From Phytoactinopolyspora endophytica (GTDB lineage Bacteria; Actinomycetota; Actinomycetes; Jiangellales; Jiangellaceae): a stretch of 10,211 nucleotides of DNA. The stretch covers positions 434,004 through 444,214 of the forward strand of contig NZ_ML142852.1 in assembly GCF_004138495.1 (NCBI RefSeq), in the 5' to 3' direction. A model generated the notes under the pieces. The model made no database searches. It was given only the letters and a program-made list of their open reading frames with translations, and had not been told where the DNA came from. Positions 2,111 to 10,211 of the stretch are shown here, piece after piece (the stretch's first letter is position 1; each line of letters starts with the position of its first letter). The position numbers and the translations under genes were made by a program.

Positions 2111-3910
2111 TTATCTATCTAGCCACACTCCCCTGGTAGTGAAAACTGTCGTGTGATGCCAAAGCTTTAGATTGTTCACGCGCGGGTTAATGAGCAGGTA
2201 ATACCCACCCCATAGAACAGGGATGCTGACATAAGCCTCGTCTTTCGCAACTGCGGACTCCACCGCGAGTCTGTGTTGAGCCTCTGGATCTTCCTCTCGT
2301 ATCGCCCTCTCGGCAAGATCACTCACGTGCTCTACCTCCGGGTGCCTACGCCCCTTGAGGATTTGCGCAAGTTCAATATCAGTAGCGCCTTGGCTCCGAG
2401 CGATGTCCAACTCTTCCGCCACCTCCACTGGCGCCAGATTCACGCCATAGGTTCTCGCGCTCGAACCTACGCTACTATGTGCGGCACCTAGTAGTGTAGG
2501 TGGCTGGACAGAATTGTTGAACACAAAGAATCCCACGTAGTCCTCAGGATGAAGGAGCACCTTGAGCTTCTCGAGATAGACTCCCCTTTCGAGAACATCA
2601 AGTCGCGCATCAATTCCCAGATCTTCTCGCCACATCTCGGCGATAGCTTCTACCCAAGGAATATTCTGGTGGTGCACCAGGTTGATCACGGGCATTCCGT
2701 CACCGTCGGCGTACCCAGCATCAGACAACAATTCTCGGGCGGCATCTACATCGTGCTCAACCCCGGGAATTTCCTCGGACGATTCCACACCTTCGGGAAT
2801 GAGCGAGTTCCCCGGAATTGCGGGTTTCGAGATTTCTCCAAGCGCCTCTCGGTCAATAGCCAATGAAAGTGCCTGCCGAACACGGACATCGTGCAACGCT
2901 GGATGGCGACTATTGAATACGGTCAAGTTGCGGAACTGATTTGTTGGTGACGAAGCTATTTCGTCGGCCACATCAGAGGTAGTTACCGCTTCCAAATCAT
3001 CTTCAATACGACCAGTGATGTCGATTTCATTCTGTTGATAAGATAGCAGATCAAACGTAGTGCCGCCGTCGTTAAAGGAAACTTCCCATCGGGAAATATA
3101 GTAGTTTTCAGAGTCCCAGTATTGGTCGTTGGAAAGTAGGACCGCACCTTGATTAACCCGAAATTCATCAAGTATGTACGGGCCATTACCCACCCATATC
3201 TGGGGATTCAGCCATTCTTCACCATTCTCCTCCACAGTGGCGGGATGCAATGGCAGTGCCCAAAACTGCGAGAGATAGATTAAGAGATCACTATTAGGCG
3301 CATCCAAACGTAGTTCGAACGTCAAGTCATCGAGCGCCTTGGCACCGACGTCAGCGAAGTTGCCGTTTTCCCCGCTCATGTAGTCAGCTGCACCAGCCAC
3401 ATTGACACGTCCTGGGTTGAAGGAAGGATTGCCTTCCCCCGCGACGCCAGGAGTAAGGATGCGTTTCCAGTTCCACTCGAAATCGCTGGCCGTCACGGCT
3501 TGTCCGTTCGACCACTTCGCATTCTCTCGGACATGGAATGTGTAGATCAAACCATCGTTCGAGATATCCCAGGACTCTGCCGCGCCCGGCAACACCTTAG
3601 AGGGGTCATCTGCGTTAACGACTACAAGCCCTTCCCACAATCCAACCATGAGAATCTGCCCGAACGATGCGTTGCCGGCCACGGCGGGGTCAAGATGCGT
3701 GACTGGCATCATAGTCTGACGCAGCGTTCCTCCCCGCTTCGGCTCATTGCTCTCGGCACTTCCGCTTTCAGGCGTGCTACCTCCACTGCCATTTGAGAAG
3801 CCGCAAGCCGAGCCTGCCGACGCTGCGGCAGCAAGCGTCGCAGCGAGAAACGTGCGTCTACGCATGGATGTTTGACCGCCAATAGGTGATGTACTTGGCC
3901 TACCACTCAC
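2111..3910 (-). CDS. ABC transporter substrate-binding protein, family 5 (SBP_bac_5)
   Basis: This 599-residue exported binding protein would capture a peptide or oligosaccharide outside the membrane for an ABC importer. The start is GTG at 3908-3910, chosen because AAGGAG lies 6 bases upstream (3917-3922). The internal ATG (residue 16) has no such site. Residues 16-36 form a Tat-like signal: MRRRTFL, an alanine-rich core, then AGSAC with Cys36 as a possible lipid-anchor site. The lipobox is poor because Gly replaces the usual Leu at -3. A Ser/Gly/Glu-rich linker follows. Family 5 landmarks include LRQTMMPVTHLDP, WSNGQAVTASDFEWNW, VGNGPYILDEF and DVRVRQALSLAIDREALG. Length is normal for the family. 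Strikingly, no permease (DppB/C-like) or ATPase gene is beside it, so it must be an orphan or use a transporter elsewhere. The peptide-versus-sugar choice is not resolved by sequence. The neighbouring oxidoreductase favours a sugar or sugar derivative, which is inference. Confidence 0.93.
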   Translation of the reverse strand: MSGRPSTSPIGGQTSMRRRTFLAATLAAAASAGSACGFSNGSGGSTPESGSAESNEPKRGGTLRQTMMPVTHLDPAVAGNASFGQILMVGLWEGLVVVNADDPSKVLPGAAESWDISNDGLIYTFHVRENAKWSNGQAVTASDFEWNWKRILTPGVAGEGNPSFNPGRVNVAGAADYMSGENGNFADVGAKALDDLTFELRLDAPNSDLLIYLSQFWALPLHPATVEENGEEWLNPQIWVGNGPYILDEFRVNQGAVLLSNDQYWDSENYYISRWEVSFNDGGTTFDLLSYQQNEIDITGRIEDDLEAVTTSDVADEIASSPTNQFRNLTVFNSRHPALHDVRVRQALSLAIDREALGEISKPAIPGNSLIPEGVESSEEIPGVEHDVDAARELLSDAGYADGDGMPVINLVHHQNIPWVEAIAEMWREDLGIDARLDVLERGVYLEKLKVLLHPEDYVGFFVFNNSVQPPTLLGAAHSSVGSSARTYGVNLAPVEVAEELDIARSQGATDIELAQILKGRRHPEVEHVSDLAERAIREEDPEAQHRLAVESAVAKDEAYVSIPVLWGGYYLLINPRVNNLKLWHHTTVFTTRGVWLDR

Positions 3911-4791
3911 GTGCCACTCCTTAGCTAGTTATAACGAAGGTACAAGACAAGTAGTCGTGCCTCGACTCCCTCATTTGCAAAGCGGGAGGTTGTAATCGTG
4001 ATGCGAAGCATGCGTTTGTGGCATACAGCAGGACGTGTTAATCATTGTTCCCGTTATAGATACAGGCGATGTTGATGCCGTTATCCGCGGTGACTAGCGG
4101 TGGCGAATGAGAGAACTCTTCGTCCCACTCTGTTGATTCGGCGACATCGAGTCGACTTGCGTCCAAATCGATTATTGCGTCGCACCCAGACGCCTAGAAC
4201 GAAAGTTTGCGATACGCCACTACAGATAAGTAGTGGTAGTGTCCCCCTTCCTCACCATCACCCACTGCCCACACCTGGCGCGAGCGGCAACGGGTAGAGT
4301 CGCACCTGCACTGCTGGCGCAAGAACTCCTGGTCAACTTCGCGACCGACCCGCTTTGCTTCGCATTCTTCACCTTCGCTGTGCACTGGGGATTGAGGTCG
4401 GACATCATACTTATATACGCAGTATAAATGGCTGGCCTCCGTCGACTATCGGCTTTCGTGATAGATGTACGGGCACATCGTCGGTACATCCAGCAGTGGA
4501 CCGGCGTTCGCACCACCGCGGCGATCATCGCAACCGCGGAGAAGATCGTATGGCGGGCAACGACACGGGACACCCTCCTACATGGTCCCGCATTGAGGCA
4601 AGCCGAAACCTCGCCGTCACGAGTAGCTCGCTGTACAGGCGTAGGTTTCATCGGCACACCTCCTAGTCACCGGAAATCGTGACTCGACCGTCCGGTGTGC
4701 GGGCCACCTTACACGACGCAAGCGATTGCCGCAATCGCTGCAACGTGCTGCTTTGACGTGCGAATCTTGATCTTCTTTGGCTACGCCCCGC
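3911..4791. other. Long non-coding stretch, mostly degraded DNA
   Basis: No convincing gene is present. The first 160 bases are AT-richer and probably hold the minus-strand promoter of the solute-binding-protein gene. A TATAAC (minus strand, 3928-3933) is visible but lies too close to the ribosome-binding site to be a confident -10 box. From about 4200 there are several short overlapping open frames on both strands, none with a ribosome-binding site or recognisable family. One plus-strand piece (about 4446-4540) reads SAFVIDVRAHR...GVRTTAA, faintly like the AFVIDVYSR...MRT region of IS3-type OrfB. Because an IS3 OrfA remnant lies at the left of the window this is possible, but the match is too weak to annotate. 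The last 80 bases hold an inverted repeat described separately. Confidence 0.5.
4718..4741. promoter_or_regulatory. Operator-like inverted repeat (CAAGCGATTG motif)
   Basis: GCAAGCGATTGC (4718-4729) is followed by a second inverted half. AGCGATTGC (4721-4729) and GCAATCGCT (4731-4739) are perfect 9-base arms around a single C. The first element is identical over 12 bases to 5526-5537 in the promoter region of the second oxidoreductase. The form, a short palindrome centred on GCG, resembles LacI-family operators. It lies just beyond the truncated end of the IS256 remnant and about 800 bp from the start of the solute-binding-protein gene. It may therefore be a leftover control region displaced by the insertion. 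It has no obvious gene to control today. Confidence 0.45.
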
Positions 4792-5083
4792 GTCCAGTGG
4801 CCGGTTGCGCCACCCCGTCATCTCCCCAGAGACCTTGTCGGTGATCCGCGAAACCTTGCCCTTCGAGACATTCGCGCCGTAGACCTCGTCGAAATGCGCG
4901 GCAACCTCACCGGTGGTCAGACCGTTCGCCGATAGTGACAACACGATCTCATCGAAACCGGTCAGCCGGTGCTACCGATTGCGCACGGTTCGAACGACGA
5001 GTCGACATCTCGGGGCACCTCGATCTCAACCGGGCCGACCTGGCTTCAACACCGTGTTGACTCTCATGCCATTGCGCGTTGGC
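4792..5083 (-). pseudogene. IS256-family (Mutator-type) transposase remnant
   Basis: Reading leftward, blocks typical of actinobacterial IS256 transposases appear in the right order but in different frames: RNGMRVNTVL (near 5050-5076), VGPVEIEVPRD...SSFEP (near 4985-5040), RLTGFDEIVLSLSANGLTTG, then EVAAHFDEVYGANVSKGKVSRITDKV and EMTGWRNRPLD (ending at 4792). Frame changes occur near 5040 and near 4965. Similarity ends exactly at RPLD, where the intact family continues into the first catalytic Asp of its DDE triad. None of the catalytic residues survive, and the N-terminal 70 or so residues are not recognisable either. It is a relict, about a quarter of the roughly 400-residue protein. Identification is from recalled family motifs and is firm. 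Confidence 0.85.
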
Positions 5084-5087
5084 ACCG

Positions 5088-5378
5088 GTGAAAACGGAGG
5101 ACCATGTCGACGTCGTCGACGCAGTGCCGGCCAGCACACCGATCGTGCTCGGAAGGGAAATTCCACGGCCGAAAGCTTTGACCATGCCCCCTTCCGACGC
5201 TCGCCAACTCGACCAGGCTCTTGCCCGGCTGCTTATGACGGACTCATCCTCCTCGCGTCGTTTTGATGAGTCGGCAACGTGGCGACATGCATTCATTGCT
5301 GCAACGTCTTGTATGGATTGCCGATCGTCGCGTGGTTACTGCTTGGCCACACACTCCAAAAATATACTTCTTATATGA
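5088..5378 (+). CDS. Possible small hypothetical protein or gene fragment
   Basis: From GTG at 5088 (or TTG at 5079) one frame stays open to TGA at 5376-5378, about 96 residues. Its first 60 codons have GC-biased third positions and a soluble, plausible composition: VKTEDHVDVVDAVPAS, then TPIVLGREIPRP, then MPPSDARQLDQALARLL. The last third turns into low-quality sequence (MTDSSSSRRF...SCMDCRSSRGY). I see no ribosome-binding site and do not recognise the family. It starts where the IS256 remnant ends, on the opposite strand, so it may be a piece of the gene that the element entered. It could equally be a chance frame. Confidence 0.2.
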   Translation: MKTEDHVDVVDAVPASTPIVLGREIPRPKALTMPPSDARQLDQALARLLMTDSSSSRRFDESATWRHAFIAATSCMDCRSSRGYCLATHSKNILLI

Positions 5379-5495
5379 CCGGGGCCCTCAATGGACGTGA
5401 CGTGGTTCGATGGAACGGTCCTGCCTCGACTGCAGTGCCTCGGCGCCTCAGGCATAACAGCGATGGGGCCCGCCCGGCCGGCCCCCTGGGGGGAG

Positions 5496-5525
5496 TTGCG
5501 TCGTTGCAAGCGTTTGGATTATGGT
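5496..5525 (+). promoter_or_regulatory. Candidate promoter of the second oxidoreductase
   Basis: TTGCGT (5496-5501) and TATGGT (5520-5525) are separated by 18 bases, a plausible sigma-70-type pair. They would start a transcript near 5532 with a leader of about 160 bases before the coding start. One operator-like site lies between the two boxes and another covers the predicted start point. That arrangement makes sense for a repressed promoter and is the main reason for this call. Box matches alone are only moderate. Confidence 0.4.
5506..5517. promoter_or_regulatory. LacI-type operator-like site 1 (GCAAGCGTTTGG)
   Basis: Near-palindrome with the same CAAGCGNTTG core as the other sites in this window. 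It lies in the spacer of the candidate promoter at 5496-5525, where a bound repressor would block RNA polymerase. Its right half is less perfect than in the site 20 bases downstream. Confidence 0.5.
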
Positions 5526-5537
5526 GCAAGCGATTGC
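5526..5537. promoter_or_regulatory. LacI-type operator-like site 2 (GCAAGCGATTGC)
   Basis: GCAA and TTGC arms surround GCGA. The 12 bases are identical to 4718-4729. Its centre is 20 bases from the centre of site 1, about two helical turns, so two dimers could bind the same face of the DNA. It would cover the predicted transcription start of the downstream oxidoreductase gene. Confidence 0.55.
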
Positions 5538-5693
5538 GGGGACGTGCACCTGTTGTCACTCTGACTGGCGTGGATCGGTGTGCTGCGTTGGAGTCCGTCG
5601 CCCACTAGCGGGGCAGCGGGCCCACTTCGGGTAGCACGACCTCTAGCGTTGCGTGCGGCCCACTACATCTGCCAAGTACTAGGGAGAAGTTTG

Positions 5694-6743
5694 TTGTTGA
5701 CCGAGGTGAATGAACCGATCCGAGTGGGCCTTATCGGTTTGGGCCGGAGTGGCTGGAAGATCCACGCCGACGGCCTGGCCAAGCTTGACGAATTCCAGAT
5801 TGTCGCCGCCGCCGACCCGGACGCCGCACGTTGCATCGAAGCCAAGAACCGCTTCGGTTGCACTACCTACTCCGACCCCAAGAGCCTGCTCAGCGATCCG
5901 CAGGTCGAACTCGTGATCGTTGCCACGCCATCACACACCCATGTTCCGCTTGGTGTTGCTGCCCTGCACGCTGACAAACATGTCGTTATCGAGAAACCCC
6001 TCGCTCAGTCCGTGGCCGAGGTCGACAAGCTCTTGGCTGCGGCGAACAAGACCGGCCGTATCCTTACGTGTTTTCAGAATAATCGATTTGAACCGATCTA
6101 CACGTCTATCCGCGACATCATCGACTCTGGCAGACTCGGCGAATTGGTCCTCATCCGCCGCGCAATTCACCGCTACACCCGGCGCTCGGATTGGCAAACT
6201 CTGCGCAAATACGGAGGTGGAGAATTGCCCAACACTGCTTCGCATTTCCTAGATCAGCTCCTGCTCCTCCTTGACGACACCCCCATCGACCTACTCGCTG
6301 ACCTCCGCCACACCGTCTCTGCCGGTGACGCCGAGGACCACGTCAAGCTCGTCCTCAAACCTAAGACCGGCCCCTTGATCGACCTCGAATCCAGTTCCGT
6401 CATCGCCGCCGGCCAGCCCGGCTGGCTCATCGCCGGCACCACCGGCACGCTCACTACCATCGAGACTACGATCCACGTTAAGTGGTATGACCCGAGTACA
6501 GTTGAGAAGATCGCCGTAACCGAAGGGGCTGCCCCGGGGCGGACCTACGTCGGCGGTAAGAAGATCAGCTGGAACGAAGAGACCATCACAACAGAGCCTG
6601 GCGGCACCAAGCGCACCTTGGACTTCTATCAACACCTAGCCCGCACCGTGCGCCACGGTGCCGATCTTTACGTCACCCCCGAGACCGTCCGCCGCCAAAT
6701 CGGTATCATCGAACGCGCTCGCCGACAGACCGGTCTTCTCTAA
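5694..6743 (+). CDS. Gfo/Idh/MocA-family NAD(P)-dependent oxidoreductase
   Basis: A second dehydrogenase of the same superfamily, only distantly similar to the first. The frame is open from 5580, but AGGGAG (5681-5686) sits 7 bases before TTG at 5694, giving a normal 349-residue protein. TTG at 5691 or 5697 and GTG at 5706 are alternatives. The Rossmann motif GLIGLGRSGWKIHA is near residue 12, ADPDAAR ends strand 2, and EKP is at about 100-102. The second domain carries GGGELPNTASHFLDQL, in which His184 and Asp187 (with Asn180) match the family's substrate-site pattern. Closest in style to inositol or sugar dehydrogenases such as the Iol/MocA groups, but the substrate is not readable. It is transcribed away from the solute-binding-protein gene and is intact despite transposase debris on both sides. 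Two operator-like sites in its promoter suggest substrate induction through a LacI-type repressor. Confidence 0.93.
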   Translation: MLTEVNEPIRVGLIGLGRSGWKIHADGLAKLDEFQIVAAADPDAARCIEAKNRFGCTTYSDPKSLLSDPQVELVIVATPSHTHVPLGVAALHADKHVVIEKPLAQSVAEVDKLLAAANKTGRILTCFQNNRFEPIYTSIRDIIDSGRLGELVLIRRAIHRYTRRSDWQTLRKYGGGELPNTASHFLDQLLLLLDDTPIDLLADLRHTVSAGDAEDHVKLVLKPKTGPLIDLESSSVIAAGQPGWLIAGTTGTLTTIETTIHVKWYDPSTVEKIAVTEGAAPGRTYVGGKKISWNEETITTEPGGTKRTLDFYQHLARTVRHGADLYVTPETVRRQIGIIERARRQTGLL

Positions 6744-6762
6744 CCAGGTAATCCGCGCGGCG

Positions 6763-6776
6763 AGGTGTCGACACCT
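6763..6776. promoter_or_regulatory. 14-base perfect palindrome after the oxidoreductase stop
   Basis: AGGTGTCGACACCT lies 19 bases past the TAA of the second oxidoreductase. As RNA it could fold into AGGTG / CACCT with a TCGA loop, extended by wobble pairs, so it may act as a weak terminator, although no T-run follows. As DNA it could be a protein-binding site or part of an insertion target. I cannot decide between these. Confidence 0.3.
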
Positions 6777-7058
6777 TGTCGGACCGGGTCCTTTGCCGCA
6801 TGGCTCCCCTTCGAGCCCCGGCGGGCAGCGAAGTAAGCCACCGACGAGGTGCCAGGGTTAGGGCTGGTCCATCTTCATGCTCGCGGCGGACTCGCACACA
6901 CCTGGCAGTTAAACCGCCCCCTTCAAGGTGCCGCTCGGCCCGTGACCCATCATCGGCATTTGCCGTGAGCATGTGGTGCCTCCAAGCTCCCTCAGCCGCC
7001 TCCCGATGACTCCAGCCAAAGAGCGAATGGGGAAGGGCCGTGCCCAATTTTAATATGC
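6777..7058. other. Non-coding region with the likely right end of the IS110 element
   Basis: No gene is supported here. Frames that stay open through it are extensions of the broken transposase. On the minus strand, just past the transposase stop, comes a GCTTGGAGGCACCACATGCTC stretch (near 6970-7000), resembling the short conserved motif that actinobacterial IS110 elements carry between the stop codon and their right end. A small CGGCA-TT-TGCCG inverted repeat is at 6954-6965. IS110 elements lack long terminal repeats, so the exact boundary cannot be set from one copy. Confidence 0.35.
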
Positions 7059-8220
7059 TCACCGTGGCGTCGCACAAAAATGGGGCCAACCCCGCCAGGG
7101 AAGCCGCGGCGAAACAACGAGCTCTTCTGATGGGTGCGCAGCGTTGAGGACGCGGTAAGATCTGGCGCGTGGTGCAGCGCTTGAGACAGCGTCGGATCTC
7201 GCGGCGGGTCTTGCCTTGGGCGGTTCGTCGCTCAACGTAGGTGCGGGTCTCGGTTTCATTGCGCATCCTGGCCAGGACGACGGTGTTCAGGGCGCAGTTC
7301 AACCGGGGATCGCCGCCGCGGTTGAGTCTGTGGTCGCTCGGTGTTGCCCGAAGATGCTGGGATCGGGCATGTGCCGGCGATCTGGGCCATATCGGCCTCG
7401 CTGCGGCCCCGGCCGGGGATAGGGCCACACGCACAAAAGTGATCGCACCGACGCCCGCCAGGGCGAGTAGCCCTGGTGCCCGGGCATCTACGATGGTGGT
7501 GACCTCATCTCGGTTGTCTTGAGCTCCGTGTCGAGCTGGACCACGCGAGTAGCGAGCCGGATGGCCTCGGCTCGTGCGGTCGCGATGCCAGTCGGCTCGG
7601 CACGTCGGCGCCACCGGGCGATCTCCTTGATCTGGGCCGCGCTCAGGGCACGGTTGTCCGCGTACGACAACGGCGGGCACCGATACCAGGGCGTGGGATC
7701 TCACCAGTGCGGTGAGCGCGTTGATCGCTCGCACCGTTCGGCGTTGAGCTGCTCACGGGCTTGTGGTCAGGACCTGTAACGCAACCTGGTCCTGACTGCT
7801 CTGCCCAGCCCCGCGGCGGTCTCGTAGCCGCGTCACCGGCATGCTCAACGTGCCGCGAGCTGCCGTGACCGCGTCCATCACATCGGTCTTACCACGTCCC
7901 CGTTCACGACGCGGCGTCGGCGCCTCGACCCGGTAGCCGACCTTCGCGAGTTCCTCGGCCAGGGGCGCGCCGTAAGAGCCGGTGCCTTCAGCGCTGACCA
8001 GCACACCGCTCACCTCGCCGTCGGTGCGACGAGCGATCCAGTCGCACGCTCGAGCGAGCCCGGCTGGCTTCGTGGGGAAGGTCTGCTCATCGACCAGGGC
8101 GCCGGTCCGCGCCACGACGATGGCGTAGCTGTGGGACGCGGCGTGGGTGTCGACGCCAACCACGAACCCGTACACATCACCGACGCTCACCGAGGTGATC
8201 GTGGCGTTCTTCTTTGTCAC
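7059..8220 (-). pseudogene. IS110-family transposase (DEDD recombinase), multiply frameshifted
   Basis: From a GTG at 8218-8220 the RuvC-like DEDD domain is intact at first: VVGVDTHAASH (Asp24), SAEGTGSYG (Glu78) and GRGKTDVMDAVTAAR (Asp113, Asp116). The frame then breaks at an extra base near 7765 (LTT / REQLNAER) and again near 7735, 7690, 7515, 7430, 7335 and 7165. Every expected later block is still found in one of the three frames: RAINALTALVRSH, SAAQIKEIARWRRR, APGLLALAGVGAIT, CPIPASSGNTE (7346-7360 encodes PASSG, with the nucleophile Ser), RLNRGGDPRLN, EIRRCLKR and YRVLNAAH, ending at TGA 7059-7061. The IS110 enzyme normally recombines ends and targets guided by an RNA. This copy is near full length but dead. 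The break points are approximate, placed by eye against remembered family sequences. Confidence 0.88.
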
Positions 8221-8224
8221 ACCG

Positions 8225-8450
8225 GGCACTGCGATGTCTCCTGACTTCAACCGGATGGGACGTCGTTGCCGACGTCGGCCCGGGAACGAAGTCACTACGA
8301 GGCGCGCCTGTAACGGGTCACAGCCAGAGTCGTTTCAGCGACTCGGGTCGGACGTGCTTCTGATCAAGCCATCGTGGTGGACCAGGATCGACGACGGCTC
8401 CCGGACCTGACGGACAGATCCTGGGCAAGACACCCCTCATCAGGGGGGTC
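8225..8450 (-). ncRNA. Possible relict bridge RNA region of the IS110 element
   Basis: The stretch just upstream of the transposase start contains no gene but at least three stem-loops: GACGTCG-TTGC-CGACGTC (8259-8276), GAGTCG-TTTCAG-CGACTC (8327-8344, with two more flanking C-G pairs across one mismatch) and CCCCT-CATC-AGGGG (8433-8446). IS110-group elements are known to encode a structured bridge RNA in the non-coding left end ahead of the recombinase, which specifies target and donor DNA. Position, length and structure fit, but I cannot assign the guide loops because the element ends and target site are not known. As the transposase is broken, any RNA here is probably a relict. Confidence 0.35.
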
Positions 8451-8588
8451 AGGCGATTCACGAGTCACACCAGATCCGATAGACCGCCGCCAACCCTGCC
8501 CGCCAGCCCAGGCCAGCCATCACAAACATTTACAGGCAGTTCAATCTGAACCGACCGCTGACACCACGGTTATGACCAGGTACGACGA
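8451..8588. other. Non-coding stretch between IS110 end and beta-helix control region
   Basis: No ribosome-binding site, recognisable protein or RNA gene is visible here. A short plus-strand frame exists across 8374-8646, but its composition (many Pro, Arg, His and Thr) does not look like a protein. The left boundary of the IS110 element must fall somewhere in or just before this stretch. Confidence 0.4.
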
Positions 8589-8598
8589 CAATCGCTTG
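8589..8598. promoter_or_regulatory. LacI-type operator-like site (CAATCGCTTG)
   Basis: The reverse complement, CAAGCGATTG, is identical to the ten-base cores at 4719-4728 and 5527-5536. It lies 67 bases centre to centre upstream of the site at 8656-8665. An auxiliary upstream operator at such a distance is a common arrangement for repressors that loop DNA, though looping is only inferred here. Confidence 0.45.
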
Positions 8599-8655
8599 TT
8601 GCCCTGCACCAACATCATTGTGCGGCCTTCCCGAATGACCAGCTAGCAAGTACCA

Positions 8656-8691
8656 CAAGCGCTTGCACTCATTGTGTTGGTGCGTTAAGCT
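8656..8691 (+). promoter_or_regulatory. Promoter and operator of the beta-helix protein gene
   Basis: CAAGCGCTTG (8656-8665) is a perfect ten-base palindrome with the central GC of LacI-family operators, and is the most symmetrical of the five related sites in the window. It overlaps TTGCAC (8663-8668), a candidate -35 box. TAAGCT (8686-8691) follows after exactly 17 bases and fits the loose TAnnnT -10 pattern of actinobacteria. Transcription would begin near 8698, leaving a leader of about 150 bases before the ATG at 8847. Repressor bound here would block the -35 box. Confidence 0.5.
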
Positions 8692-8846
8692 CTGTCCACC
8701 CGGCCGGTCGACGGGTGTGGCCGTGAAACTCGGCGGACCTAATCACCCACGTTTTGAAGACGACACAGCGAAAGTCTGGCGAGCCCAGCGCAGAAAGGCT
8801 CGAGTCCGATCAAGTGAATCGCCAACATGAGATCTGGGAGTTGAAG

Positions 8847-10211
8847 ATGGATCGCTTCAAGCACAGTGGAACACCGGCAGACACAACAATCCTTTCCCGC
8901 CGTCGTGCTCTCCAGCTGGGTGGTGCCGCATTGGCCCTGGGGGGCGCAAGCGCTATATCAGGGACTCAAGGCGCGCTTGCGCTCGGTGCATCCTCTCCGT
9001 CTCCAAGCGCGGATCTAGTATATGCATCGAGCTTCGGCTACGATCCTGACGATGCCACTGACGCGCTGCAGGCAGCCTTGGACTCGTCAGCGCATACCGT
9101 CGTGATCGACGACGTTGGCAGTGAGTGGCTTACAAGGCCACTTTTTCTGAACCGAGATAATATCTGCATCGTTGTCGAGCCAGGCGTCACTGTACGCGCG
9201 AAACCCGGGGGGTTTCCTGGCACTAGTGACAAGCTACTTAATATCACGGGACGCCAGAATGTGACGCTCCTCGGGTATGCCGCGACGTTCGCGATGAACA
9301 AACAAGAGTATATTGATCTGAACGACGGAAGCCAATGGCGGCCGGCGATCTATATTGGCAGCTGTTCCAATATTCGTATCGAGGGCCTAAAAATTACCGG
9401 CGCCGGTGGGGACGGAATTTACCTAGGGCGAGTTAGAGGTGCCAACCAAGCACAACATCCTCCCCACTCAACTAACGTTACTATCAGGAACGTCACCTGC
9501 GATGACAACTACCGCAACGGCCTCAGTGTGGTATCCGTAGACGGACTGCTTGTCGAGGGATCGGCGTTTATAAACTCCCGCGGACAGAACCCGCAGGCCG
9601 GGATAGACTTTGAGCCAAATCTGAGCGACGAGCAGATCTCTCGCGCAGTAGTGCGAGACACAGTCATGGACCGTAACGTTAACGCCAATCTCTATATAGT
9701 GTTGCGGCACCCATCGGAATACGCTGCGCCAATAGATTTACTCGTCGATCGTGTCTATATCGGACGACAGCACGAGACATCGACCTACGCGGTAAGCTTG
9801 ATGATCCAGACTCCATCCGGTGTCGATCCGGGCGGTCGTATCGAACTACGTGATTCGCTTATCGAGTCGAACCCTGCCTCCTGCAGTACCCTAATCGGGG
9901 GAAAGCAAGCTTCCGGTGTAGACCTTGTATTTACACGCACGGTGGCTATAAACATGGGTAATGAGTCTAGTCATTACCCACCGATCTATTTAACTGGCCT
10001 ATCAGGCGTGTCAGAGTTTGGTGGCATCAGCTGGGATGACTGCTCAATGTTCGTCGACCAGCCTGTTGCGTTTCTTCGCGCAAACGCGCCTGAAGGGTCT
10101 CCCGTTATTCGCGACCTAGCGGGAAATATTACAGTCGTGAATCCACACGGCGTGTGGACGGATCTCGGTGATAACACAGAAGACATCACCCTGGCCGTGC
10201 GCGCGCTGGAG
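8847..10211 (+). CDS. Tat-exported right-handed parallel beta-helix protein (3' end outside window)
   Basis: Open from ATG 8847 for 455 codons to the window edge with no stop, so the C-terminus is missing. GGGAG (8836-8840) lies 6 bases before the start. Residues 18-47 form a twin-arginine signal (SRRRALQLGGAALALGG...), predicting folded export. The mature protein begins with a segment DDATDALQAALDSSAHTVVI, typical of the N-terminal cap of pectate-lyase-like folds. It continues with short repeating strand-turn units: NICIVVEPGVTV, NVTLLGY, NIRIEGLKITGAGGDGIYLG (about 175-194), NVTIRNVTCDDNYRNGLSV (210-228), LLVEGSAFINSRGQNPQAGIDFEPN (234-258). These are PbH1-type beta-helix rungs, the fold of many polysaccharide lyases and glycosidases. 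No specific lyase or hydrolase active site can be named from sequence, so enzyme class and substrate are open. It is preceded by operator-like sites shared with the second oxidoreductase, suggesting a joint role in breaking down an extracellular glycan. Confidence 0.85.
   Translation, partial: MDRFKHSGTPADTTILSRRRALQLGGAALALGGASAISGTQGALALGASSPSPSADLVYASSFGYDPDDATDALQAALDSSAHTVVIDDVGSEWLTRPLFLNRDNICIVVEPGVTVRAKPGGFPGTSDKLLNITGRQNVTLLGYAATFAMNKQEYIDLNDGSQWRPAIYIGSCSNIRIEGLKITGAGGDGIYLGRVRGANQAQHPPHSTNVTIRNVTCDDNYRNGLSVVSVDGLLVEGSAFINSRGQNPQAGIDFEPNLSDEQISRAVVRDTVMDRNVNANLYIVLRHPSEYAAPIDLLVDRVYIGRQHETSTYAVSLMIQTPSGVDPGGRIELRDSLIESNPASCSTLIGGKQASGVDLVFTRTVAINMGNESSHYPPIYLTGLSGVSEFGGISWDDCSMFVDQPVAFLRANAPEGSPVIRDLAGNITVVNPHGVWTDLGDNTEDITLAVRALE

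Follow-up and report, generated by a model that had tools for sequence, protein, structure and literature searches.

Local sugar regulons of the LacI family have been surveyed (Ravcheev et al. 2014, PMC4052901). In the portion of that survey considered here, the operators are even palindromes with a central CG located near the repressor gene, pairs of sites may precede one gene, and a local regulator controls carbohydrate genes. Sites usually lie 30–140 bases before the target start, although this is not obligatory, and peaks of site spacing are reported at 13, 22 and 32. The locus described here, a window of 10,211 nucleotides from the 7.6-Mb draft genome of Phytoactinopolyspora endophytica (C4:434004–444214), resembles these regulons in palindrome type, proximity to a repressor gene, paired sites, putative carbohydrate targets and a candidate local regulator. 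Compared to what that portion describes, it differs in that an operator and the 16–17-base promoter spacer around it form a single locked composite, a putative target operon is split in two, and one site is ~800 bases from its proposed gene. The case appears to be an ordinary local LacI regulon in kind, the twist being an operon that appears to be split, with a copy of one and the same promoter-operator at either half.

Paralogous LacI-NagB-Gfo/Idh/MocA-ABC clusters are present in the same genome (C1:597k and C34) and in G008, G017, G018 and G019. These are similar in that their LacI genes have TGCAANCGNTTGCA-type sites and adjoin NagB-like, Gfo/Idh/MocA and family-5 ABC genes in varied combinations. 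In contrast, their repressors are 36–48% identical to the candidate repressor at C4:454150, and the composite signature of the C4 system is absent from the 13 genomes without its orthologue. The cluster at C1:597k–607k (L256, L074), with the order LacI-Gfo/Idh/MocA-NagB-PermA-PermB-ATPase-SBP and also found in G018, has, ahead of two of its gene groups, overlapping sites at a spacing of 10 bases (TGCAA...TGCAAACGCTCGCA). A literature search did not find TGCAAGCGCTTGCA, and among the papers listed on Jiangella and LacI, or on Phytoactinopolyspora and transcriptional regulators, none dealt with such a regulon, judged by title and the start of the abstract.

The ten-base motif and its gene context

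The window contains four intact genes. A family-5 solute-binding protein (SBP; 2111–3910, PF00496) is followed on the minus strand by a Gfo/Idh/MocA oxidoreductase (GFO1; 652–1869, PF01408/PF02894). A second oxidoreductase (GFO2; ~5694–6743, PF01408/PF22725) and a beta-helix protein (PF13229) are on the plus strand; the frame of the latter opens at 8754, runs past the end of the window at 10211 to L057:10365, and has a likely start, judged by eye, at 8847. Runs of N in the draft (L057:10200–10350 and 13200–13280; L055, L058) cut the beta-helix frame and that of a third oxidoreductase. Two remnants, both on the minus strand, are of a Mutator-type (IS256-like) transposase (4789–5041, PF00872), which resembles at the DNA level copies in G011, in G008 and on the genome's own contigs, and of an IS110-type transposase (7753–8295, PF01548). 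By Pfam, the target-type genes comprise ABC permeases, SBP, Gfo/Idh/MocA, NagB-like and sulfatase genes, the SBP and permeases belonging to an oligopeptide-type family; none of these genes reached an NCBIfam equivalog cut-off.

The initial annotation reported five copies of a LacI-type operator motif, CAAGCGNTTG, and all five are exact in a scan of the window (4719–4728, 5507–5516, 5527–5536, 8589–8598 in reverse, and 8656–8665). As the copy at 8656–8665 is a perfect palindrome counted on both strands, the five places give 6 strand matches, compared to a mean of 0.06 and a maximum of 2 in 200 dinucleotide shuffles, which agrees with the expectation of well under one. As also annotated, none of the five is located within the four intact genes (652–1869, 2111–3910, ~5694–6743 and the beta-helix frame from 8754). 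The entire draft has 50 strand matches in 38 distinct places, five of them within these 4 kb. Since the reversed control pattern gives 128 strand matches, there is no overall genome-wide enrichment. What is distinctive about the ten-mer is its cluster in the window and its preference for non-coding DNA. Of the 33 places beyond the window, a crude ORF caller assigns 13 to non-coding DNA, versus a non-coding share of 10.0% in a 400-kb sample of the same genome (p = 8e-6); two further places resemble over-long gene-start calls by eye, and the count was kept at 13. Nearness to LacI genes is not significant for these 33 places (3 within 2 kb, p = 0.12; 5 within 5 kb, p = 0.14). The bare ten-mer was rejected as a mark of the regulon, being too loose with 38 places genome-wide and no significant proximity to LacI genes.

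A matrix built from 25 sites of other genomes places the 14-mers starting at 5525, 8654, 4717 and 5505 as the four top positions of the window. The training sites were chosen with the core in mind, so this test is independent of the genome under study, not of the core. The scores at 5525 and 8654 (18.9 and 18.7) are never reached in the 400-kb control, while those at 4717 and 5505 (the latter 15.8) are reached twice. When the window was dinucleotide-shuffled 300 times, hits at that level had a mean of 0.013, compared to 4 seen. With these positions and with even, CG-centred palindromes such as GCAAGCGATTGC and CAAGCGCTTG, the motif copies do look like LacI-type operators.

The composite promoter-operator and the candidate regulator

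The site at 4719–4728 falls within an operator palindrome (GCAAGCGATTGC, 4718–4729) that is part of a putative composite promoter-operator on the minus strand at 4706–4734, TTGCGG - CAATCGCTTGCGTCGTG - TAAGGT, with the −35 at 4734–4729 and the −10 at 4711–4706. It matches exactly the composite pattern TTGCNN-CAANCGNTTG-N6/7-TANNNT, which has one other exact place in the genome, C4:453947–453975. The 17-mer GCAANCGNTTGNNGCAA, which on the opposite strand reads TTGCNN-CAANCGNTTG-C, likewise has two exact places, at 4718–4734 of the window and between the LacI gene and PermA. The window composite is on the strand of SBP-GFO1 and of the permeases and faces SBP and GFO1. An open frame and a possible weak terminator (3967–3953), no more than chance, lie between it and the SBP gene. 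At 4220–4657 (minus), AGGAGG and ATG are found behind the promoter; frames around 4220–5378 have no Pfam match apart from a sub-threshold one (E 0.064), and the frame at 4220–4657 is perhaps a decayed gene. Site 4719 is also inside an open frame (4663–4944) whose other end matches the Mutator-type transposase. A role as part of the transposase gene was dropped, since the DNA similarity to other copies is confined to 4789–5041, leaving the site ~60 bases outside the remnant.

The genome has 71 LacI-type HTH matches, 70 of them over the cut-off. The nearest past the window, ~10 kb beyond it, is C4:454150–455139 (plus strand; HTH match at C4:454156), a complete repressor (PF00356 and PF13377) with HTH and sugar-binding domain. 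It is divergent from genes for PermA, PermB and an ATPase (C4:449787–453762); nearby are also genes for a sulfatase, a NagB-like protein and additional Gfo/Idh/MocA proteins. The composite at C4:453947–453975 faces PermA-PermB-ATPase. The annotation had proposed looking for a nearby LacI gene with the motif in its own promoter; the DNA between the C4 repressor gene and its divergent transporter genes carries CAACCGATTG/CAATCGGTTG inside the longer signature, not the exact ten-mer. SBP and GFO1 follow on the permeases' strand, 11.9 kb beyond the ATPase gene, and the first part of this interval holds a sulfatase and the third oxidoreductase on the same strand. The NagB gene here has only a degenerate site upstream, and three relatives have a site before NagB. 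A LacI-family fragment without the recognition helix (our own reading; L058:7313–7588, C4:459312–459587, minus) follows two Gfo/Idh/MocA genes; ahead of these two is a perfect TTGCAAGCGGTTGCAA (C4:457158), which may represent an orphaned operator.

In 22 genomes of the order, the composite pattern occurs at 17 places (reversed control 0) and the 17-mer at 16 (reversed control 1). The composite is present in all nine genomes that have an orthologue of the C4 LacI (at least 80% identity), and in none of the 13 that do not; the next-best LacI matches reach at most 48% identity. Seven of the nine are from one genus and the counts are thus not independent; in both genera with the orthologue, the composite too is missing from the members without it (5 and 3). 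A distance of at most 6 kb separates the orthologue from 15 of the 17 places, the exceptions being the window site and G019:C39:234957. This joint presence and absence associates a LacI-family repressor gene with the motif and points to the C4:454150 LacI as the likely regulator.

The exception in G019 (Phytoactinopolyspora limicola) lies ~120–150 bases before an intact PermA-PermB-ATPase-SBP-GFO1 operon, whose SBP and GFO1 are each 65% identical to those of the window. The window genes were linked to the regulon via the ABC operons of G019, G011 and G017, SBP following ATPase in the latter two also. Among the sites listed, none precedes the PermA-PermB-ATPase-SBP operons of G011 or G017, although G011 has the orthologue. 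A scan of 13 SBP homologues likewise gave no site at a distance of up to 1.5 kb, as expected of homologues mostly inside operons. The window genes were discarded as a conserved neighbourhood of the orthologue, with no SBP, GFO1 or GFO2 match above 100 bits in 17 orthologue loci. Near the LacI orthologue of P. limicola, a large beta-helix-like gene (G019:C23, L075:14339–16165) has a composite upstream, which fits beta-helix genes as targets.

Relatives of the C4 LacI with 62–83% identity are found in Phytoactinopolyspora, Jiangella, Occultella, Pseudactinotalea, Actinotalea, Micromonospora and two Propionibacteriaceae-type MAGs. The 17-mer is present at 14 of 17 orthologue loci (27 places in all), including those of Occultella, Pseudactinotalea and Actinotalea. 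In 13 loci it lies ~110–220 bases upstream of the LacI frame, and in Micromonospora the distance is 1 kb; 13 loci have a second copy, 1.4–3.3 kb upstream of LacI except in Micromonospora (4 kb). The two MAG loci are without the 17-mer, as is the LacI locus of G019, whose copy lies elsewhere (C34), and two LacI homologues of 62% identity are without it. Among the matches listed, TANNNT follows the TTGCNN hexamer by 16–17 bases in 29 of 30, one Micromonospora site lacking it. An extra GCAA at +13, found in 19 of 51 distinct 24-mers, recalls the 13-base spacing in PMC4052901. Its interpretation as a second overlapping operator was dropped, because the opposite strand is the −35 start TTGCNN with TANNNT at that distance.

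Sites before oxidoreductase 2 and the beta-helix gene

The initial annotation stressed two other promoters. Before oxidoreductase 2, sites at 5507–5516 (CAAGCGTTTG) and 5527–5536 (CAAGCGATTG), both on the plus strand, are 20 bases apart, and the former, ~180 bases before the gene, falls, by eye, between the two boxes of a possible TTGCGT-18-TATGGT promoter. The palindromic site at 8656–8665 (CAAGCGCTTG) overlaps, also by eye, the −35 of a possible TTGCAC-17-TAAGCT promoter before the beta-helix gene, which is absent from the list of a consensus promoter scan. Its supposed upstream partner at 8589–8598 (minus) has a matrix score of 8.5, a background value reached by 33 positions in the 400-kb control (0.84 per window), and is probably no operator of this type. 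A scan for the composite pattern did not find it at 5507, 5527 or 8656. Distances to the start are ~800 bases for 4719, ~158 for 5527 and ~182 for 8656 (to the likely start), all outside the usual range. By these comparisons, the main site appears to be 4719, on a predicted minus-strand promoter facing the binding-protein gene, rather than either stressed promoter, since its composite points at SBP and dehydrogenase genes that form one operon with permeases in a relative. Sites 5507, 5527 and 8656 are good core matches and are probably operators as well, serving either this repressor or one closely related to it.

The identity of that repressor is complicated by paralogues. Among the 70 LacI genes examined for their recognition helix (one below the cut-off was left out), nine share the helix STVSRA(L/F). 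In the 300 bases preceding the HTH, six of these nine have a site that differs from TGCAANCGNTTGCA by at most 2 mismatches, as do 3 of the 61 others (Fisher p = 4.8e-5). Given the shared helix and this enrichment, a paralogue may be the owner of 5507, 5527 and 8656. A candidate LacI regulator gene outside the window was found as annotated; its sole control of all five copies is in question. GFO2 homologues adjoin LacI genes in G017, G018, G019 and on C34 of the same genome, where the LacI operon contains a 65% homologue of GFO2 behind TGCAAGCGGTTGCA; the 14-mers at 5505 and 5525 are one mismatch from it. A perfect 14-mer occurs in the 1.5-kb flanks of 3 of 11 GFO2 homologue loci scanned and in 12 other places.

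A proposed regulon with a putative split operon

The window sites are most likely operators of a sugar-responsive LacI-type repressor controlling a sugar-uptake island. We consider it probable that the window belongs to a carbohydrate-uptake island under the local repressor C4:454150–455139, with both promoter-operators as its targets. From the sites, their co-occurrence with the orthologue and the operon order in relatives, all read from sequence, we infer how binding, repression, promoter use and the assignment of sites to genes might fit together. Without inducer, a repressor dimer would occupy the palindrome in the −35/−10 spacer and exclude polymerase; a sugar or sugar derivative would free it from the operator. 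The composite at C4:453947–453975 would drive PermA-PermB-ATPase and that at 4706–4734 SBP and oxidoreductase 1, which share an operon with the permeases in the relative and are 11.9 kb away here. Both transporter halves would answer to one repressor, each being behind a promoter-operator of the same build. The sites at 5507/5527 and 8656 would probably be further operators, for that repressor or a paralogue close to it. We suggest tentatively, at somewhat less than even confidence, that the operon was split and co-regulation kept, because each half owns a copy of a rigid module, its operator fixed in the spacer of the promoter, of which the genome has just two copies. Several observations count against the proposed regulon: the promoter-SBP gap, far beyond the usual distance and with an open frame inside it, the lack of listed sites before the G011 operon and near the SBP homologues, the LacI homologues of 62% identity and the G019 LacI locus without the 17-mer, and the degenerate site before NagB.

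Chance, by which an AT-richer stretch happens to contain several ten-mers, could draw on the lower GC of the window (0.58 versus 0.67 in the control) and on the background score of 8589. Shuffles of the window itself account for so few ten-mers and matrix hits that we regard this as highly improbable; for the site set, 8589 alone excepted, it is practically refuted. It is unlikely, though less so, that some sites are relics of decayed genes and of the decayed repressor at C4:459312–459587, left in IS-shuffled DNA and now regulating nothing. The two transposase remnants, the nearby LacI fragment lacking its recognition helix and the frame without family match behind 4706–4734 are consistent with such decay, whereas the −35, operator and −10 there are all intact in an exact pattern match, and an intact LacI gene with a matching signature is 15 kb away.

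Control may also be divided, the C4:454150 repressor owning only 4719 and a paralogue such as the LacI of C34:12391 or C1:597621 binding 5507, 5527 and 8656. The recognition-helix type common to nine proteins, the GFO2 homologue and near-identical 14-mer of the C34 operon, and the lack of the composite build at these sites make this a genuine possibility, which we rate as short of probable. Against it, no intact LacI gene is closer than that of C4, the C34 and C1 proteins are encoded on other contigs, and the cores are too alike to tell the proteins apart.

The C4 repressor and its promoters are proposed purely from sequence, among the 71 LacI-type matches of the genome, on the basis of a signature present or absent together with the regulator across 22 genomes. 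If true, it would provide a clean case of a regulon outliving the break-up of its operon, and one for specificity within a set of nine paralogous repressors whose recognition helices are alike.
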